From NCBI GenBank assembly GCA_022701635.1, contig JAKOOD010000227.1, positions 1 to 34,404 of the forward strand: 34,404 nt of DNA. Reading direction: 5' to 3'. The translations under genes were made by a program, and so were the position numbers. Of the stretch, positions 2,914-22,678 are shown one piece after another. Under the pieces are notes generated by a model. It saw nothing but the letters and a program-made list of their open reading frames with translations. It did no database searches and had not been told where the DNA came from. This DNA comes from Burkholderiaceae bacterium (lineage in GTDB: Bacteria > Pseudomonadota > Gammaproteobacteria > Burkholderiales > Burkholderiaceae_D). Within the stretch, counting starts at the first letter, position 1; each line of letters starts with the position of its first letter.

Positions 2914-4582
2914 GCCGCGCCAGGCGCTGGTGGTGTTTGCACCGGCTGCGGGCGACGCTGCCACCCTGCGTGCGCTCATCGAGCACGAAGGCGTGCAGGC
3001 CAGCGTGTGCGCCGATGCGGCCGCGCTCTACGCGGCGGCGGACGACTCCGCCCTGGCTCTCGTCATTACCGAGGAGGGTCTGGCACGTTGCTCCCTGCAG
3101 GACCTGAGCGCGAGACTGGGCCATCAGCCGGCGTGGTCCGACCTGCCGGTCGTGGTCCTGGCCAGCGGCGAGGGCCGCGACATCGACACCGACCGCTACA
3201 CGCGGCTGGCAGGCATCGGCAACGTGATCCTGCTGACGCGCCCCACCACCCGCCTGGCATTGACGATGGCGCTGCGTTCGGCGCTGCGTACGCGCCGCCT
3301 GCAATTCGCGGTGCGCGACCAGCTGGACGAATTGTCCCGGCATGCGGGCCGGCTGGAATCGACCGTCGAGGAGCGCACGCGCCTGCTGGAACACGAAGTG
3401 CAGGAGCGCCACCGGGCCGAACAGTCGCTGGCCGAGGCGCGCCGCCTGGAATCGCTGGGCCAGCTGACCGGCGGCATCGCCCATGATTTCAACAATATCC
3501 TGCAAGTAGTGGCAGGCAGCGAAATACTGCTGCGCATGCTGCTGGCGAAGAGCGACGATCCGCGCGTGACGCGCGCGCTCGACGCCATCCGCCGCTCGTC
3601 CGGCCATGGCGCTTCGCTGACCCAGCAGTTGCTGGCCTACGCGCGCCGCCAGCCGCTGGCCAGCGTCGCCATCGACATGCGGCGCCACCTGCGCGCGACC
3701 TCCGAGATGATCCTGCGTACCCTGGGGCCGAAGGTGCGCTTTCACATGGAGCTGGCATCGTCCCTGTGGGCAGTGCTGGCCGACCCGGCGCAGCTCGACG
3801 CCGCGCTGCTGAACATCGCCGGCAACGCGCGCGATGCGATGCCCGACGGCGGCGCCCTGACCCTGCAGGTACGCAACTGGGTATTGCCCGATCCGGCGCT
3901 GCCGCAAGGAGACCGCCTCAGCGGCGACTTCGTCGGCGTGTTCATGACGGATGAAGGCGAAGGCATGTCCGAAGCCACCGCGCAGCAGGCCTTCGAGCCC
4001 TTCTTCACGACCAAGCCGATCGGCAAGGGCACCGGGCTCGGCCTGTCGCAGGTGTACGGATTCGCCATCCAGAGCCATGGCCTGGCCTTCATCCGGCACG
4101 AGCCGGTCGGCACCACCATCGGCATCCTGCTGCCGCGCAGCCAGGAGCAGATACCGGCGGCGGCCGTCGACCCGGCCACACTGCGTGCGGACGGCCTGGC
4201 GGGACTGCGCGTGCTGTACGTCGAGGACGATCCCGCAGTCGCCGACACCACGGTCGGCGTGCTGCAGTCGCTGGACGCCGGCGTGCGCGTGATCGACAGC
4301 GCCGATGCGGCGACCCAGGCGGATCTACGGGATATCGACATCGTGTTTTCCGACGTCATGATGCCCGGCACGATGGACGGCATCGACCTGGCAGGCTGGC
4401 TGGCCGAGCGCCATCCGGACTTGCCGGTGGTACTGACCAGCGGCTACATGCTGTCGCCGGAACGACTGCAGGCGCTCGACGTGCAGTTCGTGCGCAAGCC
4501 ATTCACGGCAGGCGACATCAACGATGCCTTCGTCAAGGCCTTGCGCAAGAACGCCGCCGCCGGTCCGCGGCAACGCCGCTAG
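2879..4582 (+). CDS. Hybrid sensor histidine kinase with degenerate N-terminal receiver and C-terminal receiver
   Basis: I chose the ATG at 2879 because GGGGA stands 5 nt before it. This gives 567 residues and a 35-bp overlap with the KaiC-like gene. Residues about 12-140 look like a receiver fold that has lost its acidic pocket (LALVITEEGLARC where the phospho-Asp should be). A coiled coil at about 150-190 leads to a HisKA domain with GGIAHDFNN (His202), an N box NIAGNARDAMPDGG, a G1 box DEGEGM, an F box FEPFFTTK and a G2 box GTGLGLSQ. The C-terminal receiver is intact: VEDD, Asp492 in SDVMMPG, Thr520 and Lys540. There is no membrane segment, so this is a cytoplasmic kinase. Its input is probably the KaiC-like partner or the pseudo-receiver. 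No separate output regulator is encoded beside it. Confidence 0.9.
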   Translation: MTSSERALSMPEPRQALVVFAPAAGDAATLRALIEHEGVQASVCADAAALYAAADDSALALVITEEGLARCSLQDLSARLGHQPAWSDLPVVVLASGEGRDIDTDRYTRLAGIGNVILLTRPTTRLALTMALRSALRTRRLQFAVRDQLDELSRHAGRLESTVEERTRLLEHEVQERHRAEQSLAEARRLESLGQLTGGIAHDFNNILQVVAGSEILLRMLLAKSDDPRVTRALDAIRRSSGHGASLTQQLLAYARRQPLASVAIDMRRHLRATSEMILRTLGPKVRFHMELASSLWAVLADPAQLDAALLNIAGNARDAMPDGGALTLQVRNWVLPDPALPQGDRLSGDFVGVFMTDEGEGMSEATAQQAFEPFFTTKPIGKGTGLGLSQVYGFAIQSHGLAFIRHEPVGTTIGILLPRSQEQIPAAAVDPATLRADGLAGLRVLYVEDDPAVADTTVGVLQSLDAGVRVIDSADAATQADLRDIDIVFSDVMMPGTMDGIDLAGWLAERHPDLPVVLTSGYMLSPERLQALDVQFVRKPFTAGDINDAFVKALRKNAAAGPRQRR

Positions 4583-5735: not shown

Positions 5736-7424
5736 TCAGTCCTGGGAGATCAGGGCCACCGGCGCGCGCGCATTGAATTGCACCTTGCCGTTTGCAACCA
5801 CCGCGCTCTTGCCCGAATACGCATCGCGCACGGTCTGGCCGTCGTTGAACACGCCCGCCACCGAAATCGGCAGGTCGCGGTCCAGCGGCAGGTTCAACGC
5901 GATCACGACACGGTCGCGCACGCCGTTGCTGTCGTAGGTGCGCTTGAAGGTGTACGGCATCGAGGCGATCATCTGGTGCACGCCGGCGCCGACCGCCGGG
6001 TGGGCGTGGCGGAAGCGGCCCAGGCGTGCCCAGTGCCCCTGCACGTCGGCCACGCCGTACAGGCCGACACGCGCATTCGATGTCAGCTGGTCCCAGTTCA
6101 TGAAGGAGCGCAGGTTGGCATCGCCCTGCGCGCCCTCGATCTTGAGCACGCGCGCGGTTTCGTCGCCGTAGTAGATCTGCGCCGCGCCCGGCGCCAGCAG
6201 CAGCTTGTTGGCGGCTTCCAGCGGGTACTGGCGCATGGCGTCGAACGGATTGCCGTCGTCGTGCGAGTCGAGGTAGTTGAGGACGGACACGCCTTTCAAG
6301 GGGCCGTTGAGCATGGCGGAATACCCCGAGAACAGCTGCTCGTAGCCCTTGGCCGCGTCGCCCGCCATGCTGAAGTTGATCATGCTGTCGAAACCGTTGG
6401 CGAAGTAATCGACCTTGGTGCCGTCGTCGTAGGCGTATTCGCGGCCGGACTTGATCGAGTAGCCGTACACCTCGGCCGTCATGAAGAACGGCAGGTCGCC
6501 GGCCACCTTCTTCGCTGGATTGGCGCGTTTCCAGTCTTCGTAGGCGGCGCTGGCGACGGTCTTGAGGTCTTTCCACACGCCCGGCTCGGTGTGCTTGACG
6601 GTGTCGGCGCGGAAGCCGTCGAAGCCGTACTTGCGGACCCAGTCGGCGTGCCATTTCATCAGGTAGTAGCGCGGCGCGCGCGGGTAGCCGGTGCGCTTGA
6701 AGAAGTCGTCCAGCTCCTTCACCTCGCGCTCGTAGCGCCCTTCCCGCTTCCACTTGGCCACCAGGCTTGGCGGCAGCTCGACCTTCGCGTTGCTGTCGGT
6801 GCGGATGTCGGGCAGGTTCTTCACCAGCGTGCACTCGATGGTGGTGCGCATGGTCTTGAAGCCGCATACCGGTTCGGTGCGCACCCATTCTGCCGGCCAG
6901 ACCGGATCCTGCGCCGTCACCGGACCGGTGTGGTTCATCACCACGTCCAGCAGCACGCGGATGCCGCGCGCGTGGGCGGCATCGACCAGCTCGTGCATGT
7001 CCTGCTCGGTGCCGAGATTGGCGTCGACCGCGGTGAAGTCGCTGGCCCAGTAGCCGTGGAAGCCGTAGGACTTGCCGGTGCCTTCGTCGGTGGCGCCGTG
7101 GATCTGCTCCACCGGCGGGGTGATCCAGATCGCATCCACGCCCAGGTCCGTGAAATAACCCTCCTTGATCTTCGCCGTGACGCCGGCCAGGTCGCCGCCC
7201 ATGTAGCCGCGCGCGGTGGCGGCGTCGGCCTTGCGGCCGTAGGCGAGGTCGTTGGCCGGGTTGCCGTTGTTGAAGCGGTCCGTCAGCAGGAAGTAGACGG
7301 TCGCGTTTTCCCAGGTGAAGGGTCGGGCCGCGCTCGGCTTGCCTTGCGGGACCGGTGCCGGAGTGGCGGCCGAGGCGGTGCCGAGGGCGAGCATCAGGGA
7401 AGCGGCGAGAGCGGAGAATTTCAT
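5736..7424 (-). CDS. Exported alpha-amylase (GH13, MalS-like)
   Basis: The 562-residue protein starts with a signal peptide (MKFSALAASLMLALGTASA, likely cleaved after ASA), and AGGA lies 6 nt before the ATG. All four GH13 motifs are present: region I DVVMNH at 160-165, region II GFRADTVKH with nucleophile Asp274, region III TAEVYG with acid/base Glu318, and region IV LDSHDD with His388/Asp389. YFLLTDRFNNGNPANDL near the N-terminus and the paired cysteines in the insert (187, 198) fit periplasmic amylases of the MalS type (GH13 subfamily 19), though MalS itself is about 110 residues longer. It should cut internal alpha-1,4 bonds of maltodextrins in the periplasm. It lies between pgm and the alpha/beta hydrolase on one strand, inside a starch/maltodextrin locus. 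Confidence 0.93.
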   Translation of the reverse strand: MKFSALAASLMLALGTASAATPAPVPQGKPSAARPFTWENATVYFLLTDRFNNGNPANDLAYGRKADAATARGYMGGDLAGVTAKIKEGYFTDLGVDAIWITPPVEQIHGATDEGTGKSYGFHGYWASDFTAVDANLGTEQDMHELVDAAHARGIRVLLDVVMNHTGPVTAQDPVWPAEWVRTEPVCGFKTMRTTIECTLVKNLPDIRTDSNAKVELPPSLVAKWKREGRYEREVKELDDFFKRTGYPRAPRYYLMKWHADWVRKYGFDGFRADTVKHTEPGVWKDLKTVASAAYEDWKRANPAKKVAGDLPFFMTAEVYGYSIKSGREYAYDDGTKVDYFANGFDSMINFSMAGDAAKGYEQLFSGYSAMLNGPLKGVSVLNYLDSHDDGNPFDAMRQYPLEAANKLLLAPGAAQIYYGDETARVLKIEGAQGDANLRSFMNWDQLTSNARVGLYGVADVQGHWARLGRFRHAHPAVGAGVHQMIASMPYTFKRTYDSNGVRDRVVIALNLPLDRDLPISVAGVFNDGQTVRDAYSGKSAVVANGKVQFNARAPVALISQD

Positions 7425-7548: not shown

Positions 7549-9228
<1,680 letters not shown>

Positions 9229-9262: not shown

Positions 9263-10630
9263 TTATCGCGTGGTCTGCTTGGCGTTGTCGGTGACGAACA
9301 GCGTCAATACCGCCGCCAGCACCATGCAGGCACCGCCCAGCACCAGCGTGAGGATCGCATGGCCGCCGAACAGGTGCTTGGTGAAGAAGCCGAGCAGCAG
9401 GCCGCTGACGATCTGCGGGATCACGACGAAGAAGTTGAACAGGCCCATGTAATAACCCATGCGGCTGGCCGGCAGCGCACCGGCCAGGATCGCGTACGGC
9501 ATGGTCAGGATGCTGGCCCAGGCCAGGCCGACGCCGATCATCGGCAGCATCAGCATCGTGATGTCGATGCCGAACACGTGCGCCAGCACCTGGCGGTCAT
9601 GGATGAAGAACAGGCTGGCGAGCGACAGGCCGCCGATCGCCAGGCAGACCGCGTGGCAGGCCTTGCGGCTGGTGGCGCGCGCCAGCACCGGCAGCACGAA
9701 GGCGGCCAGCGCCGAGATGCCGTTGTAGACCGCGAACATGACGCCGACATAGTTGGCGGCATCCTGGTAGGCGCTCGATTGCGCATCGGTGGTGCCGTAG
9801 ACGCTGTCGGCGATCGCGGTGCCGGTATAGATCCACAGCGAGAACAGGGCGATCCAGGTGAAGAACTGGACGAAGGCCAGCTGCACCATGGTCTTCGGCA
9901 TCTGGGCAAAGCCGCCGACGATCTCGCGCAGGGCCACGCCGAAACCGCGCGACGCGCGGCGCTGGGCCTGGAAGCGCTCCATGTCCGGCGGCGGCAGTTC
10001 GGTGGCGGTGAACACGGTCCAGCTGACGGCCACCAGGAACACCAGGCCGCCCAGGTAGAACGAGTAGCGCACCGTGTCCGGGATGGTACCGGCCACCGGC
10101 GTGTTCGAGACGTGCATCACTTCGGAGAAGAAGGTCGGCAGCAGCGACGCGATCACCGCGCCGCAGCCGATGAAGAAGGTCTGCATCGCGAAGCCGGCGG
10201 TCTGCTGCGACGGATCGAGCTTGTCGCCGACAAAGGCGCGGAACGGCTCCATCGAGACGTTGATCGCCGCATCCAGCATCCACAGCACCGCCACCGCCAT
10301 CCAGACGGCGGCGGAATTCGGCATCAGGAACAGCGCGATGGTGGCGAAGATCGCACCGAGGAAGAAGAAGGGACGGCGGCGGCCCCAGGTCGGGTGCCAG
10401 GTGTTGTCGCTGAGGTAGCCGATGATGGGCTGCACCAGCAGGCCGGTGACCGGGGCTGCCAGCCAGTACAGGGACAGGTCGTCCATGTTGGCGCCGAGGG
10501 TGGCAAAGATGCGGCTGGTGTTGGCGTTCTGCAGTGCGAAGCCGAACTGGATGCCGAAGAAGCCGAAGCTCATGTTCCACAGCTGCCAGAACGACAGGCG
10601 CGGTTTGAGCGAGTGAAGTTGCATGTCCAT
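9263..10630 (-). CDS. MFS sugar transporter, GPH/SUC type (probable maltose/maltodextrin:H+ symporter)
   Basis: The protein has about 12 hydrophobic segments. It starts at the ATG at 10630 (GGGGA 5 nt upstream) or the one at 10624 (AAGGA 5 nt upstream), and the sequence does not decide between them. LSFWQLWNMSFGFFGIQFGFALQNANTSRIF and the loop NTWHPTWGRRRPFFFLGA are typical of the glycoside-pentoside-hexuronide/SLC45-like sucrose and maltose symporters of Caulobacter, Xanthomonas and relatives. It would bring maltose or short maltodextrins across the inner membrane with protons. Its place ahead of pgm and the amylase on one strand, with its own strong promoter, fits that role. The substrate is inferred from context only. 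Confidence 0.88.
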   Translation of the reverse strand: MDMQLHSLKPRLSFWQLWNMSFGFFGIQFGFALQNANTSRIFATLGANMDDLSLYWLAAPVTGLLVQPIIGYLSDNTWHPTWGRRRPFFFLGAIFATIALFLMPNSAAVWMAVAVLWMLDAAINVSMEPFRAFVGDKLDPSQQTAGFAMQTFFIGCGAVIASLLPTFFSEVMHVSNTPVAGTIPDTVRYSFYLGGLVFLVAVSWTVFTATELPPPDMERFQAQRRASRGFGVALREIVGGFAQMPKTMVQLAFVQFFTWIALFSLWIYTGTAIADSVYGTTDAQSSAYQDAANYVGVMFAVYNGISALAAFVLPVLARATSRKACHAVCLAIGGLSLASLFFIHDRQVLAHVFGIDITMLMLPMIGVGLAWASILTMPYAILAGALPASRMGYYMGLFNFFVVIPQIVSGLLLGFFTKHLFGGHAILTLVLGGACMVLAAVLTLFVTDNAKQTTR

Positions 10631-10679
10631 CCTTGTCCCCTGATGGTGCCCGGACGTGTGCCAGACTACCTGATGTAGC

Positions 10680-10708
10680 AAAATAACATGGGGATGGATG
10701 AGTGTCAA
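10680..10708 (-). promoter_or_regulatory. Sigma-70 promoter of the sugar symporter gene
   Basis: On the minus strand a perfect -35 box TTGACA (complement of 10703-10708) is followed after exactly 17 bp by TATTTT (complement of 10680-10685). Transcription would start near 10673, about 43 nt before the likely start codon at 10630. This is the best-matching promoter in the window. Confidence 0.75.
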
Positions 10709-10738
10709 TTCACACAACACCCAGAGGACGATGAAATT

Positions 10739-10755
10739 ATGTAGTCAAACAACAG
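10739..10755. promoter_or_regulatory. Weak HexR-type site upstream of the symporter promoter
   Basis: ATGTAGTCAAACAACAG matches 12 of 17 positions of the inverted repeat at 17511-17527. One half (TGTAGTC) is intact and the other is degraded. It lies about 31 bp upstream of the -35 box, a place more typical of activation than of repression. It may be chance. Confidence 0.3.
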
Positions 10756-10897: not shown

Positions 10898-12703
10898 TCA
10901 ACCCTTGCGGTGCGGTTTCTTGTCCGCGAACTTGCGCTTGGCGGCCGGCTTCTTTTCCGGCGGTTCCTCGCCGTCGCGCGTGATGCCCAGCTGCTGGCCC
11001 GCCACCCACACCTTCTTCAGGTGGTCGACCAGGTCCTGCGGCAGGTCGGCCGGCATGTCCAGGGTGCTGAAGTCGTCGTAGATCTCGATGCGGCCGATTT
11101 CCTTGGACGCGATGCCGCCTTCGTTGGCGATGGCGCCGACGATGTTGCCCGGCTTGACACCGTGCGCGTGGCCGACTTCGATGCGGTAGGTGGCCATGCC
11201 CGGTTCCGGCGCACGCGCCACGCGTTCCTTCTTGAAGCCCTGGCGGCCTTCCCCTTCGCGCGGTGCGAAGCCTTCGCGGCCAGCGCGCGCCGGGCGCTCG
11301 TCGCGCTCGAACGAACGCTCGCGGCCTTCCGGACGCGGCTCGCGCTCGCGCGGCTCGAAGGCCGGCTTGGCCTCGCGGTCCGGCTTCTCGATCAGCAGCG
11401 GCTCGTCGCCGCGGTACAGCTTGGCCAGCGCGGCGGCGATATCGATCGCCGGCACGTTCTGGTCGCGCTCGTATTCTTCGATCAGCGAACGGAACACCTC
11501 CAGGCCGCCGGCGGCCAGGGTCTCGCCGATCTGGTCCTTGAAGCGGGCGATGCGCACGTCGTTGACCGCCTTGACGGTCGGCAGTTTCAGTTCGGCCACC
11601 GGCTGGCGCGTGGCGCGCTCGATCGACTTCAGCAGGCCGCGTTCACGCGGCGTGATGAACAGGATCGCCTGGCCGCTGCGACCGGCGCGGCCGGTGCGGC
11701 CGATGCGGTGGGTGTAGCTTTCCGGGTCCGACGGCACGTCGTAGTTGATCACGTGGCTGATGCGCTCCACGTCCAGGCCGCGTGCGGCGACGTCGGTGGC
11801 AACCAGGATGTCGATCTTGCCGTTCTTGAGCTGGTCGATGGTGCGCTCGCGCTGCTGCTGGGCCAGGTCGCCGTTGATGGCGGCGGCCAGGAAACCGCGC
11901 GCCTGCAGCTTGCTGGCCAGTTCCTCGGTACCGAGCTTGGTGCGCGCGAAGATGATCATGCCGTCGAAGGGTTCGGCTTCCAGGATGCGCGTGAGTGCCT
12001 CGATCTTTTGCAGGCCGGCCACGAGCCAGTAGCGCTGGGTGATGTTTTCGGCGGTACCGGTCTTGGCGGCGACCGTGACTTCCTGCGGCTCGCGCAGGTA
12101 GGTCTTGGCGATGCGCTTGATCGCCGGCGGCATGGTCGCCGAGAACAGCGTGGTCTGGCGCGTGTCCGGGGTCTGCTGCAGGATCTGTTCGACGTCGTCG
12201 ATGAAGCCCATGCGCAGCATCTCGTCGGCTTCGTCGAGGATCAGGGTCTTCAGTTGCGACAGGTCGAGCGAACCCTTTTCGATGTGGTCGATCACGCGGC
12301 CCGGGGTACCGACCACCACGTGCACGCCGCGGCGCAGCGCCGCTAGTTGCGGGCCATACGCCTGGCCACCGTAGATAGGCAGCACGTGGAAGCCCTTGAT
12401 GTGGGCCGCATAGCTCTGGAAGGCTTCGGCCACCTGGATCGCCAGTTCGCGCGTGGGCGCCAGCACCAGCGCCTGCGGCGCGGTGAGCTTGGTGTCGATC
12501 TGGGCCAGCACCGGCAGCGCGAAGGCGGCGGTCTTGCCGGTGCCGGTCTGCGCCTGCCCCAGCACGTCGCGGCCTTCCATCAGCAGCGGAATGGTGGCCG
12601 CCTGGATCGGCGATGGCGTTTCGTAGCCGACGTCCTTGAGCGCCTTGAGGATGGGCGCGGGAATATTCAGGTCGGCAAACGTCTGGAGCGGGGTTTCAAG
12701 CAT
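10898..12703 (-). CDS. deaD: DEAD-box ATP-dependent RNA helicase (DeaD/CsdA type)
   Basis: The 601-residue product starts at the ATG at 12703 (MLETPLQTFADLNI). An upstream GTG in the same frame would add 18 residues with no homology. The helicase motifs run in order: Q motif (FADLNIPAPILKAL...TPSPIQ), motif I AQTGTGKT at 51-58, PTRELA, TPGR, the DEAD box at 157-160, SAT at 188-190, and HRIGRTGR at 332-339. A low-complexity Arg/Glu stretch follows the core (REREPRPEGRERSFERDERP). Next comes a DbpA/CsdA-type RNA-binding domain (GHAHGVKPGNIVGAIANEGG) and a Lys/Arg-rich tail. The role is unwinding structured RNA in ribosome assembly and mRNA decay, especially in the cold. Its probable promoter leaves a leader containing a stable hairpin. 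It looks like a housekeeping gene inside the sugar locus. Confidence 0.94.
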   Translation of the reverse strand: MLETPLQTFADLNIPAPILKALKDVGYETPSPIQAATIPLLMEGRDVLGQAQTGTGKTAAFALPVLAQIDTKLTAPQALVLAPTRELAIQVAEAFQSYAAHIKGFHVLPIYGGQAYGPQLAALRRGVHVVVGTPGRVIDHIEKGSLDLSQLKTLILDEADEMLRMGFIDDVEQILQQTPDTRQTTLFSATMPPAIKRIAKTYLREPQEVTVAAKTGTAENITQRYWLVAGLQKIEALTRILEAEPFDGMIIFARTKLGTEELASKLQARGFLAAAINGDLAQQQRERTIDQLKNGKIDILVATDVAARGLDVERISHVINYDVPSDPESYTHRIGRTGRAGRSGQAILFITPRERGLLKSIERATRQPVAELKLPTVKAVNDVRIARFKDQIGETLAAGGLEVFRSLIEEYERDQNVPAIDIAAALAKLYRGDEPLLIEKPDREAKPAFEPREREPRPEGRERSFERDERPARAGREGFAPREGEGRQGFKKERVARAPEPGMATYRIEVGHAHGVKPGNIVGAIANEGGIASKEIGRIEIYDDFSTLDMPADLPQDLVDHLKKVWVAGQQLGITRDGEEPPEKKPAAKRKFADKKPHRKG

Positions 12704-12735
12704 GAAAGAAAATCTCGTAAAAAGCAAAAACGTTC

Positions 12736-12774
12736 GGGGCCAGAGCCCGGTTTTCACGGTTGGGCTCTGACCCC
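12736..12774. repeat. Palindromic element in the helicase leader
   Basis: GGGGCCAGAGCCC (12736-12748) faces GGGCTCTGACCCC (12762-12774), complementary except for one position that still allows a G-U pair in RNA. The loop is 13 nt. The predicted helicase transcript starts at about its outer edge, so the hairpin would form the 5' end of that mRNA, 33 nt before the start codon. Alternatively it is just a dispersed repeat lying between genes. Confidence 0.7.
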
Positions 12775-12847: not shown

Positions 12848-14368
12848 TCAACGCTTTGCTGTTGCAATTGCCCTTATGAATTCCTTATGCGAAGGCATCA
12901 CATCGACGCATTTGCCGACCACGCGTTCGATATTGCCGAGAAAATCGCCCAGTTCCTTGTCGCTCAATAGGTCCACCAGCGGGTTGTAGCCCGCGGTTTG
13001 GACGCCCTGCCCGTGCAGCACCTGCTGCCAGCCGATCTCCGTGAAGAGTTCGTTGTTTTCTCGCACCACCCGCCCGTGCGCTCCATATAAATCCAGCTTG
13101 CGCCGCAGCGTATCGGGAATGGCCATCGTGCGCACATGGTCCCAGAACGGCGTGTCGCGGCGCTCGGTCGCGTGGTAGTGCAGGATGATGAAGTCGCGGA
13201 TACGCTCGACCTCGAAATCGCACTGGCGGTTGAACTCGTCGATGTCGGCCTGGTGGAAGCCGGCGTCCGGGAAAAAGCTGACCAGGCGCGAGATCGTCGA
13301 CTGGATCAGGAAGATCGAGGTCGATTCCAGCGGCTCCAGGAAGCCCGACGACAGCCCGACCGCGACCACGTTCTTGTGCCAGACCTTCTTGCGCTTGCCG
13401 GCGGTGAAGCGCAGCAGCTTGGGTTCGGCCAGCGGCTTGCCGTCCAGGTTCTTCATCAGGATGGCCGCCGCTTCGTCGTCGCTCATGAAGCGGCTCGAAA
13501 ATACGTGGCCGTTACCGGTGCGGTGCTGCAGGCCGATACGCCATTGCCAACCGGCCGGGCGCGCGCTGGCGCGCGTGTACGGCAGCAGGTCGCCGCCCGA
13601 TTCGCACGGCACCGCCCAGGCACGGTCGCAGGGCAGCCAGTGGCTCCAGTCCTCGAAACCGGTGTTCAGCGCCTGCTCGATCAGCAGGCCGCGGAAGCCC
13701 GAGCAATCGAGGAACAGGTCGCCCTCCACCACGCTGCCGTCTTCCAGCGCCAGCGATTCGATGAAGCCGTCGCGGGGTCCGCCATTCAGACGCTGGCGCA
13801 CCTGCACGATCTTGCCTTCGGTGCGCACCACGCCGTGTTGTTCGGCATAGGTGCGCAGGTAGCGCGCGTACAGGCCGGCGTCCAGGTGGAAGGCGTAGAC
13901 GATGTCGGCCAGCGGCGAATTCGCCATCTCGGGCGACGGCCGTATGAACTTGCCTGCCTGTGCCGCCATGCGGTTGATCGAATAATGCGCGAGGTCGGGC
14001 GCCTGGCCGGCCCGGTGGGCCTTCAGCCAGTACTGGAAGAAGTCGACCGTTCCGAAGTCCTGCCCGAACTTGCCGAAGCCGTGCATGTAGCGCTCCCCCA
14101 CCCGGCCCCAGTCTTCGAACTCGATGCCGAGCTTGAAGGTGGCCTTGGTCTCGCGCATGAATTCATCCTCGTTGATGCCGAGGACATGATTGAAGAGGCG
14201 AATCATCGGGATCGTCGATTCGCCGACGCCGACGCTGGATATCGCGTCCGATTCGACCAGGCGGACTGCCACCTTGTTGCGCAGGATCTTGGCCAGCGCC
14301 GCGGCGGCCATCCAGCCGGCGGTGCCGCCACCGACGATGACGATGTTCTTGATGGGTGTCTGGTTCAT
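12848..14368 (-). CDS. Tryptophan-halogenase-family flavoprotein
   Basis: The 506-residue product is a flavin-dependent halogenase homologue (Pfam Trp_halogenase). The FAD dinucleotide loop GGGTAGW is at 13-19. The catalytic lysine falls at exactly residue 79 (TFKLGIEF), the number used for PrnA Lys79. The catalytic Glu is at 345 in SSGFLEPLEST (PrnA Glu346). The WxWxIP motif that marks two-component halogenases reads WQWRIG here (274-279), with Gly instead of Pro. Homologues stand beside TonB-dependent receptors in Caulobacter, Xanthomonas and Brevundimonas sugar loci, and a few of these act on indole. The true substrate here is unknown. It lies downstream of the receptor on the same strand, with 108 bp and two hairpins between. 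No flavin reductase partner is in the window. Confidence 0.88.
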   Translation of the reverse strand: MNQTPIKNIVIVGGGTAGWMAAAALAKILRNKVAVRLVESDAISSVGVGESTIPMIRLFNHVLGINEDEFMRETKATFKLGIEFEDWGRVGERYMHGFGKFGQDFGTVDFFQYWLKAHRAGQAPDLAHYSINRMAAQAGKFIRPSPEMANSPLADIVYAFHLDAGLYARYLRTYAEQHGVVRTEGKIVQVRQRLNGGPRDGFIESLALEDGSVVEGDLFLDCSGFRGLLIEQALNTGFEDWSHWLPCDRAWAVPCESGGDLLPYTRASARPAGWQWRIGLQHRTGNGHVFSSRFMSDDEAAAILMKNLDGKPLAEPKLLRFTAGKRKKVWHKNVVAVGLSSGFLEPLESTSIFLIQSTISRLVSFFPDAGFHQADIDEFNRQCDFEVERIRDFIILHYHATERRDTPFWDHVRTMAIPDTLRRKLDLYGAHGRVVRENNELFTEIGWQQVLHGQGVQTAGYNPLVDLLSDKELGDFLGNIERVVGKCVDVMPSHKEFIRAIATAKR

Positions 14369-14476: not shown

Positions 14477-17272
14477 TTACAGCTTGTAGTTCAGGCCGAT
14501 CATCACGTTGCGACCGAAGCGTTTGTCTTCGATGACGTTGTCCTTGGTCTTACGATAGCGCATGTACGGCGCATCGTTGACGTTGGTCATCTGCGCCAGC
14601 ACGGACAGACCCTTCAGGCTGCCGGTCTGGAACTCGTAGCCGAGCTGCAGGTCGATCACTTTTTCGCCCTGGAAGTAGGTCAGTTCACGTGCACCGGAGT
14701 AGTCCGAGACTTCGCCGATGAAGTCCGAACGGTAGCGCTCCGCCACGCGGGCCGAGAAACCGGCCTTCTCGTAGTACAGCGTCAGGCTGGCGGCACGCTT
14801 GGACAGGCCCGGCAGGGCCATCGAACCCGAACCGCCGTTGGTGGTGTCCGGCAGGGTGACGGCGCTGCTGTTCTGGGCGACGTTGGCGACCACGCCGAAA
14901 CCGTCCAGGTAGCGGGTGACCAGGCTGAACGGCAACGATGCCGCGAATTCCACACCCTTCATGTTGCCGCCCGAGCCGTTGACCGGCGCGGTGTAGATAC
15001 CGATGTTGCTCGGTGCACGCACCGTGGTCGGCAGCAGGTAAGGCGTGAAGTCGGTGCTCTGGCCGCCGGTCACGATGTAGGTATCGAGCTTGCGGTAGAA
15101 CGCGGCCGCGCTGACGTAGGCCTTGTTGTCCCAGTATTTTTCGTAGGACAGGTCGACGCCCTTGGCGCGGAACGGCTTCAGGCGGGTGTTGCCGCCATCG
15201 CCGGCGTACTGGTTCCTGGTCGTGTCGAGGCCGAAGGTGCGCGATGCGCGCATGTCGTTCAGGGTCGGACGGGCCATGATCTTCTCGGCCGAGAAGCGCA
15301 GGGTCTGCTGGTTACCCAGGTCGCCGATCAGGTTCAGGGTCGGCAGCACGTCGTTGTAGCTGGTGCCGTCGGTATAGGAACCGGTCGGACGGTTGGCGTC
15401 GGTGACGCCCGCGGCCACCGACTCATCCACCGAGAACGCGGTCGACTCCTGCTGGGTGTGGATCACTTGCAGGCCCAGCGAACCGCGCACCGGGATGCTG
15501 CCCACCTGGGTGTCGATGCCCAGCTTGGCAAACGCGGTCGAGACCTTTTCGCGGACGATCCAGTCCTTGTTGTAGATGTCCGGATGCAGCTTCTGGTTGA
15601 TATCGTAGATGCCCAGGTTCTGCAGCGGGTTGAAGGTGATCATGTTGATCCCGCTGGCACCGGCCGGGGCGCTGCCCGAACCACTCGGGTACGGCACCGA
15701 GGCGAACGGATTGCTGCTGCCGGCGATCGACAGCAGGTTCTCGGTGTAGTCGCGGGTCTTCGAACGGTTGGTCACGTTTACGCCGACGTTGGCCTTGCTG
15801 AAGATCCAGGCGTTGTCCAGGTCGCGGGTCAGGTCGAAGCGGACCGCGCCCAGCTTGTCGTACACGTGCGGGAACTTGACGTAGCCGGCCTGGGTTTGGG
15901 CCCCGCCCCAGCCCTGGACGTCGGTCAGGCGTACGCTGTTCGGGTCGGCGTAGTTGACGCCGGTGGTAAAGATCTGGCTGCCGGCGGTGAAGCCGACGGT
16001 GTCGAAGGTGTTCGAGGTGCCGTAGGTTTCGATGTTGGCGCCGGTGCGCTCGGCCGAGTTCCACGACAGGTCGAGGTTGGCGCTCCAGTCGCGGTTCAGC
16101 TTCAGCTTGTTGTTCCAGCCGATCGACTTGCTGGTGTCGCTGTACGCCACGTTATCGTTGCGCAGCACGGCGCGCACGTTGTTGAACGAGCCGGCGGTGA
16201 CGGTGTTGCCCGACAGCGTAGGATTGATCAGCTGGCCCGGACGGTCGTACAGCGTGGTGGCCGGGGTGTCCGACAGCGGCAGCTGGATGCCGTGGTTGGC
16301 GGTATCGCGGTCATAGCGCGAGTAGAACAGGTCGATGGTGCTCGAGAATTCGCGGCTCGGGCGGAACTGGAGCACGCCCATCAGGCCGTTGCGCTCTTGC
16401 GTGTAGACCTCGGTGAACGCTTCCATGCCGGTGTACGGGATGTTGACGGTCTGGCCGTTGTAGGTCGTGGTGCCGCTGCCCCAGGAGCCGAAGCGGGTCT
16501 GGTCGCCGGTCTTGCCCTGCAGGCGGGTGAAGCCGAAGGCGATACCGACGGTGCGGTTCTGGAACTGGTCGATGTACGAGAAGGTCGAGCGGTTGCTGTA
16601 GCCATGGGTATCCATGCCCAGGCCGGTCTTCTCGCGACGGTAGTTGACCGCCATCGTGCGTTCCTTGAAGTCCAGCGGACGCACGGTCTGCATGTCGATG
16701 GTGCCCGACAGGCCCTGGCCCATCAGGCCGGCATCCGGGGTCTTGTAGACGGTCACGCCGGACAGCATCTCGCCCGGGTACTGGTCGAATTCGACGTTGC
16801 GGTTGTCGCCGACGGAGACTTGCTCGCGGCCGTTCAGCAGGCCGGTCGAGAAGGCCGGCGACAGGCCGCGGATCGAGATGACCGATGCGTTGCCGTGCTC
16901 GTCGCGCTGGGCGGTCAGGCCCGGCAGGCGCGAGATCGATTCGGCGATCGACTGGTCCGGCAGCTTGCCGATGTCTTCGGCCGAAATCGCCTCGACGATG
17001 GAGTCGTTGTTTTTCTTGACCGAGATCGCCGCTTCGATACCGCGGCGGATGCCGGTCACTTTCACACTCTGGATGCCGATGTTGCCGTTGTTGGCAGCCG
17101 CGTCGCCGTTACTTTGCGCGACCGCCTGGCTGGTGGTCTGCTGTTCCTGCGCGAAGGCAGCCTGGGTCGCCAGCGCCATGAAGACGGCGCAGCCTGCTGC
17201 GACCGGACGGAGTTGGAATGCAACATTGCCCGGCACGTTGCGCGCCGAGCGCTTGTTTGCGAAAAGGTTCAT
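14477..17272 (-). CDS. TonB-dependent outer-membrane receptor (probable maltodextrin receptor)
   Basis: I start it at the ATG at 17272, with GAGGGG six bases upstream. An in-frame ATG at 17290 lacks this. The 931-residue product has a signal peptide (VAAGCAVFMALATQAAFAQ). A plug domain follows: VKVTGIRRGIEAAI as TonB-box region, then EAISAEDIGKLPDQSIAESISRLPG, SIRGLSPAFSTGLLNGR and LSGTIDMQTVRPLDF. The rest is a long beta-barrel ending FGRNVMIGLNYKL. This form matches the Xanthomonas/Caulobacter TonB receptor family (TIGR01782), whose members often take up plant sugars. Placed opposite an amylase pair and near a maltose-type symporter, it most likely imports maltodextrins. The ligand cannot be read directly. 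The upstream region has two TTGACA boxes and distant inverted repeats. Confidence 0.92.
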   Translation of the reverse strand: MNLFANKRSARNVPGNVAFQLRPVAAGCAVFMALATQAAFAQEQQTTSQAVAQSNGDAAANNGNIGIQSVKVTGIRRGIEAAISVKKNNDSIVEAISAEDIGKLPDQSIAESISRLPGLTAQRDEHGNASVISIRGLSPAFSTGLLNGREQVSVGDNRNVEFDQYPGEMLSGVTVYKTPDAGLMGQGLSGTIDMQTVRPLDFKERTMAVNYRREKTGLGMDTHGYSNRSTFSYIDQFQNRTVGIAFGFTRLQGKTGDQTRFGSWGSGTTTYNGQTVNIPYTGMEAFTEVYTQERNGLMGVLQFRPSREFSSTIDLFYSRYDRDTANHGIQLPLSDTPATTLYDRPGQLINPTLSGNTVTAGSFNNVRAVLRNDNVAYSDTSKSIGWNNKLKLNRDWSANLDLSWNSAERTGANIETYGTSNTFDTVGFTAGSQIFTTGVNYADPNSVRLTDVQGWGGAQTQAGYVKFPHVYDKLGAVRFDLTRDLDNAWIFSKANVGVNVTNRSKTRDYTENLLSIAGSSNPFASVPYPSGSGSAPAGASGINMITFNPLQNLGIYDINQKLHPDIYNKDWIVREKVSTAFAKLGIDTQVGSIPVRGSLGLQVIHTQQESTAFSVDESVAAGVTDANRPTGSYTDGTSYNDVLPTLNLIGDLGNQQTLRFSAEKIMARPTLNDMRASRTFGLDTTRNQYAGDGGNTRLKPFRAKGVDLSYEKYWDNKAYVSAAAFYRKLDTYIVTGGQSTDFTPYLLPTTVRAPSNIGIYTAPVNGSGGNMKGVEFAASLPFSLVTRYLDGFGVVANVAQNSSAVTLPDTTNGGSGSMALPGLSKRAASLTLYYEKAGFSARVAERYRSDFIGEVSDYSGARELTYFQGEKVIDLQLGYEFQTGSLKGLSVLAQMTNVNDAPYMRYRKTKDNVIEDKRFGRNVMIGLNYKL

Positions 17273-17477
17273 TTGTCCCCTCGAATACATTTAGAACTAC
17301 ATTTTTTCCCGCAAACACCGGCCGGAAGCCAACAACACGGGATCCTCGAATAAACGTTTCTTAGACGTTCTGTCAACGATTCTGTACTAAAACTAGATGC
17401 ACTGTCAACGAGACTTGCCTTTGACTACTTGGATGTAAAATTTTTACGCGAATTTCCGCAAAAGCGGGGGTTTAACG

Positions 17478-17494
17478 TTGTATTCGAGCTACAA
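17478..17494. promoter_or_regulatory. HexR-type inverted repeat, site 2
   Basis: TTGTATTCGAGCTACAA has arms TTGTA/TACAA and differs from the perfect site at 17511-17527 at three positions. The centres of the two sites are 33 bp apart, close to three helical turns, so a protein bound at both would sit on the same face of the DNA. Confidence 0.6.
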
Positions 17495-17510
17495 ACGTCT
17501 GTATTTGTTA

Positions 17511-17527
17511 TTGTAGTCGTACTACAA
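17511..17527. promoter_or_regulatory. HexR-type inverted repeat, site 1 (perfect arms)
   Basis: TTGTAGTCGTACTACAA is a perfect inverted repeat, 7-bp arms around CGT. It fits the TGTART-N3-AYTACA shape reported for HexR boxes (Shewanella form TGTAAT-N3-ATTACA) and the TTGT...ACAA ends of Pseudomonas HexR sites. The regulator domain of the gene at 1-1268 is HexR. A LacI-family sugar regulator elsewhere in the genome is the main alternative reader. Confidence 0.65.
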
Positions 17528-17683
17528 CCCTGTTGATTCGCACCAACATAATGCATAAATGCACTGAAATAGTGCAAAACCACGTAGTAGGTTTACCGAA
17601 TGACGAGACGATTGGTCAGCTTCCGTTGACTTTTCCTCCATCGGCAGTTGTAACAAAACTAGCCAACAAATTTTGCGCGCGCG

Positions 17684-17767: not shown

Positions 17768-17784
17768 CTGTAGTTTGGCTACTT
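17768..17784. promoter_or_regulatory. Partial HexR-type site in the amylase leader
   Basis: CTGTAGTTTGGCTACTT keeps GTAG-N5-CTAC with the same spacing as the perfect site and matches it at 10 of 17 positions. It lies 41 bp before the start codon, downstream of the predicted promoter, where a bound repressor would act as a roadblock. Confidence 0.4.
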
Positions 17785-17825: not shown

Positions 17826-19703
17826 ATGAACAAGACCCTTGCCCGCCTGCTCACCCCTTTGCTGGCGAGCGGCGCTCTGCTGGCTGCCGGCGCCGTCCAG
17901 GCACAGGCACCGGTCATCGACCACATGGATCCGCCCTTCTGGTGGGCCGGCATGCAGCACAAGGGTTTGCAGCTGATGGTCCACGGTCCGGCCATCGCCG
18001 CGCTGGAACCGACCCTCAGCTACCCGGGCGTGCGCATCGCCGCGGTCAGCCGGGTGGCCAGCAAGAACTACCTGTTCATCGACCTGCTGGTGGATGCCGA
18101 CGCCAGGCCGGGCAGTTTCGACATCGTGTTCAAGGGCGCCGACGGGCGCAGCACGACGTATGCCTACAAGCTGCTGGCACGCGAGCCGGGTTCCAGCCAG
18201 CGCAAGGGCTTCGATACCAAGGATGCGATCTACCAGATCATGCCGGACCGCTTCGCCAACGGGATTACTGCGAACGACAGCGTCGCCGGCCTGCCCGACA
18301 AGCTCGACCGCAAGCTGGGCCACGGCCGCCACGGCGGCGACATCCAGGGCATCATCGACCACCTCGACTACGTCGAAGGCCTGGGCTTCACCCAGCTGTG
18401 GCCGACGCCCCTCGTCGAAAACGACATGCCGGCCGCCTCGTACCACGGCTACGCCGCCACCGACCTGTACAAGATCGACCCGCGCTACGGCAGCAACGAG
18501 GACTTCAAGCGCCTGTCCACCGAAGCGCGCAAGCACGGCATCGGCCTGATCCAGGACGTGGTGCTGTCGCACATCGGCCTGAACCACTGGTGGATGAAGG
18601 ACTTGCCGACCCCGGACTGGATCAACCACCCCGGCACCTTCGTGGCGACCCGGCACGCCCACACCGCCGTGCACGATCCGTATGCGTCGAAGGAAGACGC
18701 CGACAACTTCACCACCGGCTGGTTCAGCCCCGGCATGCCGGACATGAACCAGACCAATCCCTACGTCGCCAACTACCTCATCCAGAACAATATCTGGTGG
18801 ATCGAGTACGCCGGCCTCAGCGGCCTGCGCATCGATACCTTCGGCTATTCCGACGGCGGCTTCCTGAGCGAATACACGCGCCGCCTGATGCAGGAATACC
18901 CGAACCTGAACATGGTCGGCGAAGAGTGGAGCAAGCTGCCGTCGCTGGTCTCGCACTGGCAGCGCGGCAAGGTCAACTTCAACGGCTACGTCAGCTCGAT
19001 GCCGAGCCTGATGGACTTCCCGCTGACCGAAGCGATGCGCGACGCCCTGGCCAAGAAAGACGGCGGCAACATCTTCACCGACGTCTACGAGACCCTGTCG
19101 CAGGATTACCTGTACCCCGACCCGAAGCGCCTGGTGCTGTTCGAGGGTAACCACGACACCGCGCGCATCTTCAGCGTGGTGAACGAGGACTACGACCGCT
19201 ACCGCATGGACATCGCCTTCGTGATGACCATGCCGCGCATCCCGCACTTCTATACCGGCGACGAACTGCTGATGACCAGTACCGTCGGCACCCGCGACGA
19301 CAACAGCTACCGCCACGACTTCCCGGGCGGCTGGGCCGGCGACAAGGTGAATGCCTTCACCGGCGCCGGCCTGACGGCGCGCCAGCGCACGGCCCAGGAC
19401 TTCGTGCGCAAGCTGGTCACCTGGCGCAAGAACAGCCCGGTCATCCATGACGGCAAGCTGATGCACTACGCGCCGGAAAACAATACCTGGGTCTACTTCC
19501 GCTACGACGAACAGGCGCGCGGCGTGAAGAAGGTGATGGTGGCGATGAACGCGAACGCCAAGGAGATGGTACTGCCGGCGGTGCGCTTCCACGAGATGCT
19601 GGACGGCGTGGCATCCGGACGGGACGTATTGAGCGGCAAGACGTACACTCTCAAGGACGAGATCCGCCTGCCTGCCAAGTCGGTGCTGATCCTGGAACTC
19701 TGA
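17826..19703 (+). CDS. Exported cyclomaltodextrinase / neopullulanase-like GH13 enzyme
   Basis: The start is the ATG at 17826 with GGAG six bases before it, giving 625 residues. The signal peptide ends near GAVQAQA. Residues about 30-117 form a cyclomaltodextrinase N-terminal beta-domain (IDHMDPPFWWAGMQHKGLQL). The GH13 barrel follows: YQIMPDRFANG, GGDIQGIIDHLDYVEGLGFTQLW, region I DVVLSH (244-249), region II GLRIDTFGY with nucleophile Asp337, region III VGEEW with acid/base Glu366, and region IV EGNHD ending Asp444. A short C-terminal beta-domain closes it. WWMKDLPTPDWIN is shared with SusA-like enzymes. Region I has Ser where most GH13 enzymes have Asn. It should hydrolyse cyclodextrins, pullulan or maltodextrins in the periplasm. 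The next gene follows after 38 bp. Confidence 0.92.
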   Translation: MNKTLARLLTPLLASGALLAAGAVQAQAPVIDHMDPPFWWAGMQHKGLQLMVHGPAIAALEPTLSYPGVRIAAVSRVASKNYLFIDLLVDADARPGSFDIVFKGADGRSTTYAYKLLAREPGSSQRKGFDTKDAIYQIMPDRFANGITANDSVAGLPDKLDRKLGHGRHGGDIQGIIDHLDYVEGLGFTQLWPTPLVENDMPAASYHGYAATDLYKIDPRYGSNEDFKRLSTEARKHGIGLIQDVVLSHIGLNHWWMKDLPTPDWINHPGTFVATRHAHTAVHDPYASKEDADNFTTGWFSPGMPDMNQTNPYVANYLIQNNIWWIEYAGLSGLRIDTFGYSDGGFLSEYTRRLMQEYPNLNMVGEEWSKLPSLVSHWQRGKVNFNGYVSSMPSLMDFPLTEAMRDALAKKDGGNIFTDVYETLSQDYLYPDPKRLVLFEGNHDTARIFSVVNEDYDRYRMDIAFVMTMPRIPHFYTGDELLMTSTVGTRDDNSYRHDFPGGWAGDKVNAFTGAGLTARQRTAQDFVRKLVTWRKNSPVIHDGKLMHYAPENNTWVYFRYDEQARGVKKVMVAMNANAKEMVLPAVRFHEMLDGVASGRDVLSGKTYTLKDEIRLPAKSVLILEL

Positions 19704-19741: not shown

Positions 19742-22678
19742 ATGAAAAAAACCGTGATCGCCCTGGCCACCCTGCTCGCCGTGCTGGTGCTGAGCGCCCC
19801 CACCGCGCCCGCTGCCGAGGCGGTGCCGCTGAAGTACGACATCTACGTGCGCGGCGCCTTCAACGGCTGGGGCACCGACAACCTGCTCGCCTACAAGGGC
19901 AAGGGCGTCTATGAGGCGGACGTGCTGGTCAGCCCGGGCAACCATGCCTTCAAGATCGGCAGCAAGGACTGGAGCGCGGAATGGGTGGCCGATCCGGCGG
20001 CCAGCGTGCGGGTCGACCTGGAACGCGCCTATCCGCTGGCGACCCAGGCCGGTCCCGAGGATTACCTGTTCACCAAACAAACCGCCACCTTCCGCTTCCG
20101 CGTCGACGTGAGCGACCGGGCCAGGCCGGTGCTGAGCGTGACGCGGCTGCCGGCGCCGGCGCGGACCGCGACGCTCGATCCGCACAAGGATGCCGCCGCC
20201 ACCCGCACCCTGGACTTCGCGACCTGGGACGGCAAACAGGAGCACGCGCGCTTTTCCAGCCCGGATCCGGCGGCGCCGCTGCGCACCTACGCGCACTCGA
20301 CCACGATGCAGCTGCGCGACCCCGGTCCGCAATTCGCGTCCTACCAGGAAGACCCCGCCCTGCCCCGGGTCCGCAGCGGCAACCTGGCCTTCGACGCCCT
20401 GTTCGCGCTGGCCGTGCACGAGATGCGCCAGGATTCGGTCAAGGAAATCCGCGACGGTAACTACAACGGCAACGCGCCGATTCCCTGCGACTGCTTCGAG
20501 ACCGGCGAGAAGTGGCATTACGTGTGGACGCGCGACCTGTCGTATGCGGCCGAGCTCGGCCTGGCGATGCTGGATCCGCAGCGCGTGCGCAATTCGCTCG
20601 AGTTCAAGCTGTCCGGCTGGCGCGACGGCGTCACCAGGGCGGCGCAGGTCGCCGGGACGGCGGACGGCCTGCAGATCGTGCAGGACACAGGCAGCGGCGG
20701 CAGCTGGCCGGTCAGCACCGACCGCGTGACCTGGGCCTTCGCGGCCGAGGAAACGCTCAACAACCTGGCGCCCGCCGAGCGCCCGGCCTTTGCGACCAGG
20801 GCGCTGCAGGCGCTGTCGAACACGATCGAGAACGACCGCCTCGCCGCCTTCGACCAGCTGACCGGCCTGTACACCGGCGAGGAATCCTTCCTCGACTGGC
20901 GCGACCAGAGCTACGCGGCCTGGATCCCGGGCGACCTGGCCTCGATGGCCAGCAGCGCCGCGCTGTCGACCAACGTCGCCCACTACAAGGCCTTGACGCT
21001 GGCCGCCCAACTGGCGCGCGAACAGGGCGACCCGGCGCGGGCCAAGCGCTACGCCGACTGGGCGGCGGCGCTCAAGCGCAGCATCAACACGCGCCTGTGG
21101 CTGCCCGACGAAGGCATGTACAGCAGCCTCACCGCCGCCCACTTCGACGGCGCGCCGCTGCACAAGTTCGATTGGCTGGGCCAGGCGCTGGCGATCGTCA
21201 CCGGCGTCGCCGACGGCGAACGCGCGCGCAGCATCCTGGCCCGCTATCCGCACGGCCCGATGGGCGCACCGGTGATCTGGCCGCAGCAGCAAGGCATGCC
21301 GGTCTACCACAACCGCGCCATGTGGCCGTTCGTGACGGCGTACGGCCTGCGCGCGGCGGCGCTGGGGCGCCACGCCGGCGTCGCCGATGCCGCCTACGAT
21401 GCGCTGATCCGCGGCGCGGCGCTGAACCTGTCGAACATGGAAAACCTGGAGTGGCTGTCCGGCCAGCCGGTGCTGCTGGACGAAGCGCACCCCGAGCTGA
21501 TCGGCCCCGTCATCAACTCGCGCCGCCAGCTGTGGTCCGTCGGCGGCTATATCGGCATGGTGGTGCGCAACGTGTTCGGCGTGTCGGCCACGGCCGGCGG
21601 CATCCGGCTGCAGCCTTTCGTCACCACCCGGCTGCGCGCCGGGATGATCGGTGCGGACGGCGTCGCCACGCTGCGCAACCTGCGCCTGCGCGGCCATGCG
21701 ATCGACGTCACGCTGCATTTGCCGGCGGATGCGGGCAGCGATCACGCCCCGGGCATCTATGCCGTCGAAGGCATCCTGCTGAACGGCCAGCCGGCAGGGC
21801 CGGACATCCGCTGGGACCAGCTGCGCGCCGAGAACACGATCGAGATCCGCTTCGGCAAGGCAGCCGCCGACGCCCAGCCGATGCGGCGCGTGCAGGCCGA
21901 CCCCTACCGTGAAGATCCGGCCGTGTTCGGGCCGCGCGAGCCGGTTGTCACGAGCATGACGCGCGACGCCGCCGGCCATCCGGTGCTGACGATCGGCGGC
22001 CCGGGTGAAGCGGCCGGCGTCACCTACAACGTCTACCGCGACGGCAAGCCGGTCGCACAGGGGCTGGCGGCCGGCGCCTGGACCGACCGCGCCGCCCCCG
22101 CCAACGCCTGCTACGCCGTCGAAGCGCAATTCGGCGCGAGCGCCAACCGCAGCCACCACAGCCAGCCGTTCTGCATCGGCAGCGTGGTCGACATCGCCGC
22201 CACCGACGCCCGCGTCGCGGCCAGCGTGGCGCTGGCCGGCCCGAATGCCCGTTTCGCCGATACCCGCCTGGCCAACTGGGGCAAGCCGGACGACCATTTC
22301 GCGGTGCGCGAGGTGCGCGTGCCGCAGGATGGCGACTACGCCGTGCAGGTGCGCTACCACAATGGCGCCAACCAGGTGAACCTGGGCATCAGCGGCGGCG
22401 TGAAGTGGCTGACGGTGAAGGACGGGGCCGGCGCCATCGTGGCGCAGGGCGTGGTGCAGTTGCCGCACGCGCGCATCGACAAGGCGAATACGCCGACGGT
22501 GTTCTCGACGCCGCTGACGGCGAAGCTCGCTGCGCACGGCAGCTACCGCATCGAGATGAGCGACTTCTTCAACATGAGCTATTTGGAGAGCAACAGCAGC
22601 TTCAGCGCCGCCGGCGGCGTCGAGGGGCCGTCGAACCGCTTCGATATCTACGGGGTGCGGCTGCTGCGGGTGCGCTGA
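19742..22678 (+). CDS. Exported six-hairpin glycosidase with starch-binding-like N-domain (probable glucoamylase type)
   Basis: This 978-residue secreted protein begins with MKKTVIALATLLAVLVLSAPTAPA. Residues about 30-85 (YVRGAFNGWGTDNLLAYKG, then GNHAFKIG) look like a small CBM48/E-set glycan-binding domain. From about 215 to 660 a helical (alpha/alpha)6 fold is suggested by WHYVWTRDLSYAAELGLAML, ESFLDWRDQSYAAW, KFDWLGQALAIVTG and IWPQQQGMPVYHNRAMWPF, which resemble six-hairpin glycosidases such as GH15. The catalytic acids cannot be fixed. A fibronectin-like stretch (about 735-800) and a C-terminal CBM6/35-like beta-domain (about 830-978) end the protein. It likely frees glucose from maltodextrin ends. 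It shares a transcript with the GH13 gene upstream. Its ribosome site is weak. Its 3' end overlaps the convergent acetyltransferase gene by 31 bp. Confidence 0.8.
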   Translation: MKKTVIALATLLAVLVLSAPTAPAAEAVPLKYDIYVRGAFNGWGTDNLLAYKGKGVYEADVLVSPGNHAFKIGSKDWSAEWVADPAASVRVDLERAYPLATQAGPEDYLFTKQTATFRFRVDVSDRARPVLSVTRLPAPARTATLDPHKDAAATRTLDFATWDGKQEHARFSSPDPAAPLRTYAHSTTMQLRDPGPQFASYQEDPALPRVRSGNLAFDALFALAVHEMRQDSVKEIRDGNYNGNAPIPCDCFETGEKWHYVWTRDLSYAAELGLAMLDPQRVRNSLEFKLSGWRDGVTRAAQVAGTADGLQIVQDTGSGGSWPVSTDRVTWAFAAEETLNNLAPAERPAFATRALQALSNTIENDRLAAFDQLTGLYTGEESFLDWRDQSYAAWIPGDLASMASSAALSTNVAHYKALTLAAQLAREQGDPARAKRYADWAAALKRSINTRLWLPDEGMYSSLTAAHFDGAPLHKFDWLGQALAIVTGVADGERARSILARYPHGPMGAPVIWPQQQGMPVYHNRAMWPFVTAYGLRAAALGRHAGVADAAYDALIRGAALNLSNMENLEWLSGQPVLLDEAHPELIGPVINSRRQLWSVGGYIGMVVRNVFGVSATAGGIRLQPFVTTRLRAGMIGADGVATLRNLRLRGHAIDVTLHLPADAGSDHAPGIYAVEGILLNGQPAGPDIRWDQLRAENTIEIRFGKAAADAQPMRRVQADPYREDPAVFGPREPVVTSMTRDAAGHPVLTIGGPGEAAGVTYNVYRDGKPVAQGLAAGAWTDRAAPANACYAVEAQFGASANRSHHSQPFCIGSVVDIAATDARVAASVALAGPNARFADTRLANWGKPDDHFAVREVRVPQDGDYAVQVRYHNGANQVNLGISGGVKWLTVKDGAGAIVAQGVVQLPHARIDKANTPTVFSTPLTAKLAAHGSYRIEMSDFFNMSYLESNSSFSAAGGVEGPSNRFDIYGVRLLRVR

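Follow-up and report, generated by a model that had tools for sequence, protein, structure and literature searches.

A close described counterpart of the system considered here is RccR of Pseudomonas. Its footprinted operator is reported as the 15-bp sequence TGTAGT-N3-ACTACA, and two copies of it, 68 bp apart, are reported at the aceE promoter (PMC5489143). RccR is an HTH and SIS protein of the RpiR family that senses KDPG (PDB 8k3b), and the genes it is reported to control belong to pyruvate and glyoxylate metabolism and to gluconeogenesis. In the available account of its effector pocket, KDPG is contacted by nine residues, namely Ser139, His148, Arg152, His164, Ser183, Ser185, Ser188, Lys270 and Arg277 (PMC10810197). 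HexR, a member of the same family, is reported to control glk often (PMC5343134). A third reference point is PRK14101, a curated model for a bifunctional transcriptional regulator/glucokinase. A literature search for Massilia, starch, TonB-dependent receptor and regulator together found no paper, and the titles and abstract beginnings of related literature mentioned nothing on the regulon described below.

In this study, we analysed a stretch of 34,404 nucleotides from a Burkholderiaceae bacterium (the window), which is the whole of contig G000:C704 from a fragmented genome that is 88% complete. The initial annotation had proposed that two 17-bp palindromes, lying 33 bp centre to centre between a TonB receptor and an amylase pair, are HexR-type operators of the form TGTART-N3-AYTACA, controlled by a Glk-HexR fusion encoded in the same window. 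A string check located both palindromes with this spacing (Table 1). The right-hand site fits the HexR form, whereas the left-hand site departs from it twice, with T for R and G for A. Operator 2 matches the RccR 15-mer exactly and operator 1 does so with two mismatches; the starch core is thus one that an RpiR protein can bind, as reported for RccR. The likeness to RccR thus covers the 15-bp operator, its paired copies and a protein of the HTH and SIS type. Compared to RccR, with its central metabolic targets as reported, the sites here lie at starch genes and are spaced at 33 bp, the candidate regulator is fused to glucokinase, and the KDPG contacts are partly lost.

Table 1. Predicted operators, related elements and genes of the window
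Feature	Coordinates	Strand	Remarks
Glucokinase-RpiR fusion, type B	1..about 1268	-	Glucokinase domain 252-1181; HTH_6 6-221
GH13 alpha-amylase-family enzyme	5736..7424	-	PF00128
Phosphoglucomutase	7549..9210	-	PRK07564, 934 bits, over cut-off
MFS sugar-symporter-like gene	9263..10720	-	Head of MFS-pgm-GH13 run; PF07690; TIGR01301 below cut-off
Sister site TGTAGTCAAACAACA	10740..10754	.	One mismatch; upstream of MFS gene
Tryptophan-halogenase-family flavoprotein	12848..14368	-	PF04820, 646 bits
TonB-dependent receptor	14477..17290	-	PF07715; TIGR01782, 534 bits
Conserved element TGTACTAAAACTAGA	17383..17397	.	0.97 conserved in 45 promoters
Operator 1 TTGTATTCGAGCTACAA	17478..17494	.	
Operator 2 TTGTAGTCGTACTACAA	17511..17527	.	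Perfect arms; contains the RccR 15-mer core
Weaker element TTGTAACAAAACTAGCC	17648..17664	.	GH13 side; related elements in relatives; putative function
Third TGTAG-N5-CTAC site CTGTAGTTTGGCTACTT	17768..17784	.	Before GH13 gene; mean conservation 0.77
Cyclomaltodextrinase-like GH13	17826..19703	+	PF00128, PF09087, PF10438
Glycosidase-like protein	19742..22678	+	PF22422, PF17389, weak

The receptor and the divergent GH13 gene flank the sites as had been described; the second gene of the "amylase" pair gives weak matches to the MGH1-like and Bac_rhamnosid6H glycosidase families and none to an amylase family. The fusion gene is likewise present, with a glucokinase domain and an HTH_6 domain; its start codon is not fixed, and the contig end cuts it within or just after the HTH domain, so that its SIS domain falls outside the window. 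The gene at 10898-12757, also considered as the Glk-HexR gene, is a DEAD-box RNA helicase and was rejected. Between the fusion and the starch genes, positions 1435-4582 (+) hold a KaiC-type double ATPase gene and a histidine kinase/receiver gene on the opposite strand; the same insertion is found in the close relative G046 and is absent from G048, G016 and G027.

Conservation of the pair was examined within the genus. A GH13 orthologue (62-100% identity) is present in 45 of 49 same-genus genomes, own genome included. The promoter set comprised 44 of these together with the receptor promoter of G016; G045 was left out as its contig is too short upstream, the receptor promoter was taken for G030 since the GH13 gene does not adjoin the receptor there, and G018, G032 and G041 lie outside the set. 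Both operators are kept in 42 of the 45 promoters at up to 6 mismatches in 28 arm positions, and in 40 at up to 4, with a spacing of 33 bp in 41 promoters and 32 bp in one. In G020, G026 and G040, operator 2 is absent and an operator 1-like palindrome remains. In a 45-way alignment made without pre-selection, the arms are conserved at a mean of 0.98 (operator 1) and 0.94 (operator 2), the centres at 0.60 and 0.61, the DNA between the operators at 0.39, and two flanking stretches at 0.54 and 0.53. The twin palindromes therefore look functional, as predicted operators conserved across the genus.

Counts of matches depend on how strictly the pattern is read. Within the window, the joint pattern gave 7 matches at up to three mismatches, the right-hand site being counted on both strands, compared with 0.57 expected in shuffled sequence. 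Across the own genome the same tolerance gave 67 matches versus 317 for the reversed control, and because this is no excess, loose matching proves nothing. The strict consensus TGTART-N3-AYTACA occurs at only two places in that genome, this promoter and the region upstream of a gene that we take to be GH97-like. The exact core TGTAGT-N3-ACTACA was found at 14 places in 20 genomes and its reversed control at 10, so the genome-wide count alone says little; 13 of the 14 places are the receptor-GH13 promoter.

The same intergenic region holds further elements. The TGTACTAAAACTAGA element shares the 15-bp register of the operators and differs from them by two G/C swaps. It lies 96 bp from operator 1 in 34 of the 45 promoters and 94, 97 or 99 bp from it in six more. 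The distance is 83-85 bp in G011, G020, G026, G040 and G043, in which operator 2 is lost or weak; such a spacing is about one helical turn less, which hints at phasing. A promoter scan of the intergenic region returned one match, at 17408-17379 (-), which overlaps the TGTACTAAAACTAGA element; with 0.9 matches expected, this is at chance level.

Sister sites were surveyed around the fusion genes in 70 loci (1.42 Mb) drawn from the best 80 matches listed, most of them named Massilia, together with Telluria, Pseudoduganella and Duganella. In these listed loci, at least 67 distinct sites lie within one mismatch of the core, compared with 5 for the reversed control. Of the 67, 64 are within 300 bp upstream of a called start or up to 60 bp inside it, and no called start lies near the other three; 7 of the sites are located within some called ORF as well. 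By gene classes assigned from short motifs, 61 of the 67 adjoin an MFS gene, a GH13 alpha-glucosidase, a POT transporter or one class of genes longer than 850 aa. The sites most likely belong to a local starch/maltodextrin regulon of Massilia-type Oxalobacteraceae, as judged by their positions. Many loci (e.g., L289 and L244) also have a separate palindrome-like sequence, TGTATATTNTCTACA, roughly 40 bp ahead of the alpha-glucosidase start.

Related sites are also found outside the starch cluster. The GH97-like gene of the own genome has TGTAGTAATATTACA upstream, and among 11 such promoters in relatives, five carry TGTAGTAATATTACA or TGTAGTAAAATTACA, three carry weaker sites and three carry none. 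A search of 20 genomes, which covered all but G038, gave 19 promoters of a stand-alone glucokinase gene. Of these, 18 have TGTACCTAAACTACA and that of G046 has TGTAGCCAAACTACA; a partner site about 64 bp further up (54 bp in G023) accompanies 16 of these 19 promoters. The stand-alone glucokinase site (in the own genome L025, G000:C3, 3539-3553) resembles both the starch operators and the TGTACTAAAACTAGA element.

The order of genes ties some of these sites to the fusion itself. In G048 and G016, the MFS-pgm-GH13 run leads on into fusion B, as it does via a hydrolase gene in G027; in all three genomes the head of the run carries the site. In the own window and in G046, an opposite-strand gene pair lies between the MFS-pgm-GH13-hydrolase run and fusion B, and in G033 about 9 kb separate the starch run from fusion B. 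Of 42 decidable rows, 34 have fusion A, the paralogue, behind the alpha-glucosidase; 10 further rows are undecidable. The best reading of these arrangements is that the fusion is autoregulated at least where it stands in a site-bearing operon. Autoregulation would not be general for fusion B, because the gene pair intervenes here, where the run is interrupted, and because of the gap in G033. Co-loss of site and fusion was not seen at the alpha-glucosidase promoters, since those without an adjacent fusion keep a one-mismatch site (6 of 8) as do those with one (21 of 34), some genomes occurring twice in these rows.

We propose, with a probability of roughly 0.6, that the glucokinase-RpiR fusion encoded in the cluster is the regulator of the twin operators and of the local starch regulon. 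Elimination and its position make it the likeliest owner, as does the presence of the site in some fusion-bearing operons. Each of 20 genomes has a HexR-type HTH_6 match within its best-scoring group, as well as long-frame HTH_6 genes at the positions of glucokinase matches, with two such fusion paralogues in 17 genomes and one in three. The twin sites are retained in G016 and G048, in which the zwf-linked HexR and one fusion are the only HTH_6 proteins. In the smallest cluster examined (G048), the fusion is the sole DNA-binding regulator recognised; of its 25 called ORFs, 10 were family-scanned, giving no HTH family and three ORFs without any family. Arg53 and Arg56, the DNA-contact arginines of RpiR proteins, are kept in 78 of 78 fusions, HTH_6 scores over its cut-off in the window fusion, and the G046 fusion gives an SIS-type alignment to 8ju9/8k3b. 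Of the circuit first proposed, in which a HexR fused to glucokinase governs starch uptake, the starch regulon, the RpiR-like operators and the fusion as best candidate binder are retained, while its equation with HexR is given up.

Compared to PRK14101, the fusion has the same domain order, and fusion B of G046 aligns with nearly the whole model at 816 bits. The differences are that the curated cut-off of 920 is not reached (G046, 816; window fragment, 551), that paralogues exist and that the context is starch utilisation. By strict text patterns, the glucokinase motifs NDF, ER-SGPG and EGGH occur in 78, 74 and 62 of 78 fusions, respectively. The G046 fusion was also aligned to E. coli glucokinase, with the catalytic residues being those that we take to be so. 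Elsewhere in the own genome, L027 (G000:C269, 1294-3753, -) is a frame of about 820 aa with a GH1 beta-glucosidase-like start, as judged by eye, and a full glucokinase domain at its end (368 bits); this further putative hydrolase-glucokinase fusion has MFS and LacI-like genes as neighbours. The own genome also holds a third RpiR gene, distant from the others (L029, G000:C469, 2588-3532, +), which lies between peptidase-like and TonB-receptor-like genes.

The effector pocket of the fusions departs from that of RccR. Four of the contacts (His148, Arg152, His164 and Ser183) are kept in 76 of 76 fusions, Ser139 in 55, and Ser or Thr at position 185 in 53. Ser188 is lost in all 76, and Lys270 in 74 of 75 (kept in one) in an alignment that is less certain near 270; Arg277 was left out of the comparison. 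In five glk-linked HexR proteins from other Burkholderiales, positions 185 and 188 are Ser or Thr and position 270 is Lys. The zwf-linked HexR of the genus also departs at 164, 185, 188 and 270, so the change is not unique to the fusions. The loss of these residues weakens the KDPG step of the proposed circuit, and KDPG sensing by the fusions, judged from these alignments, should not be assumed.

Within this genus, the name HexR fits another protein, a separate RpiR of about 285 aa that is encoded behind zwf and fills the HexR role. The 17-mer is absent upstream of zwf in the own genome, a result that the initial annotation had named as refuting, and for this reason the HexR label fails. In 8 loci fetched, a HexR-type gene stands behind a zwf-like gene or a zwf site, and in the own genome it stands behind a zwf-like fragment; the names zwf, edd and pgi in these loci are those that we presume from the look of the sequences. 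All 8 loci carry the AT-centred TGTAGTAAATTTACA at zwf. Six of them also have an edd-type site, which is a variant in one, and five have a pgi-type site, which is a variant in two; in G012 and G043, edd and pgi lie outside the stretch covered. The CG-centred starch core was not seen at zwf or edd in these loci. Across the genus, TGTAGTRAATTTACR occurs in 48 of 49 genomes (not in G039) with zero reversed-control matches, and in the own genome it lies just upstream of the zwf-like gene. HexR's own targets thus use another site class. Against the NCBIfam HexR model PRK11302 (cut-off 296 bits), the G046 fusion (226) and the own zwf-linked RpiR (263) both fall short.

These observations bear on the strongest alternative, in which the zwf-linked HexR binds both the AT-centred and the starch sites as an expanded HexR regulon, and the fusion serves mainly as a kinase. 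With a recognition helix nearly identical to that of the fusion, the zwf-linked HexR could bind the starch sites. The two proteins are of one family and both keep Arg53 and Arg56, the half-site TGTAGT is common to starch operators and zwf-class sites, and intermediate sites occur at GH97 and some other promoters (e.g., TGTAGTAATATTACA and TGTAGTGAAATTACA); an Alteromonadaceae strain is also reported to carry hexR inside an alpha-glucan locus (PMC12844025). However, the known HexR targets of the genus use the TGTAGTRAATTTACR class almost throughout, and in complete genomes the zwf-linked HexR is encoded far from the starch cluster, whereas the fusion lies inside it. We regard this alternative as unlikely.

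It is distinctly improbable that the sites are owned by a protein of a different regulator family (LacI, GntR or other) whose gene lies elsewhere. The binder is a predicted one, and a LacI-type gene was seen by eye beside the glucokinase-bearing gene on C269, which leaves such a regulator some room; yet the 15-mer equals a reported, footprinted RpiR operator (PMC5489143), and no LacI-type gene was recognised by eye in the 36-60 kb clusters of G046, G033, G027 and G048, nor by the family scan of 10 of the 25 called ORFs in G048. Some LysR-type genes are present in the clusters of G033 and G027. That the palindromes arose by chance and have no function, as the lack of excess at three mismatches in the own genome might suggest, is contradicted by conservation of the arms with free centres in 45 promoters, by the fixed spacing and by the confinement of sister sites to promoters, and was rejected as highly improbable.

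The ancestry of the fusion was also considered. Its RpiR half shares 49-56% identity with glk-linked HexR from other families, compared with 38-40% for the zwf-linked HexR of the genus. In an RpiR tree, fusions A and B are joined (99/100) and stand apart from the zwf-linked HexR (100/100); the deep order lacks resolution and long branches meet, and for this reason the fusion is not claimed as a strict orthologue of glk-linked HexR. When the whole class was searched, HexR/RccR relatives came up in 6 of 143 genomes, own genome included. In two distant Burkholderiales families (L303 in G079 and L304 in G068), an alpha-glucosidase and an ABC sugar-transport set lie directly beside genes that we take to be edd/eda, zwf, pgl, glk and hexR, the GH13 gene alone having been assigned by computed similarity. 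Because of these neighbourhoods, a tie of glk-hexR to malto-oligosaccharide genes may be older than Massilia.

With the fusion as regulator, the circuit could work as follows. The fusion would bind the twin sites and repress when starch sugars are absent, and an RpiR oligomer might bridge the twin sites, the element 96 bp off (some nine helical turns) and the site ahead of GH13. Repression would be lifted by a product of starch breakdown, sensed through the fused kinase or an altered SIS pocket; candidate signals are glucose at the kinase, glucose-6-phosphate or KDPG. The zwf-linked HexR would run central metabolism separately through the AT-centred sites. A more specific version, which we consider rather doubtful, is that a relative of HexR has been re-purposed in the fusion, with its own KDPG pocket decayed, and that the fused glucokinase senses the starch-derived glucose which it phosphorylates and passes the signal directly to DNA binding at the promoter for outer-membrane starch uptake.

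Collectively, these comparisons indicate that a conserved starch regulon with RccR/HexR-like predicted operators is real, and the circuit first proposed appears plausible once relabelled from HexR to a local Glk-RpiR. If the fusion is indeed the regulator, three consequences would follow. First, a regulator would be assigned to the TonB-dependent starch systems of Massilia-type bacteria. Second, a role would be suggested for the "bifunctional glucokinase/regulator" in this lineage. Third, it would be a case of an RpiR regulator of central metabolism that has been transferred to a polysaccharide locus, its effector pocket having changed. The presence in one cell of two close operator classes, CG-centred at starch genes and AT-centred at zwf, together with two related regulators makes a clean test possible.
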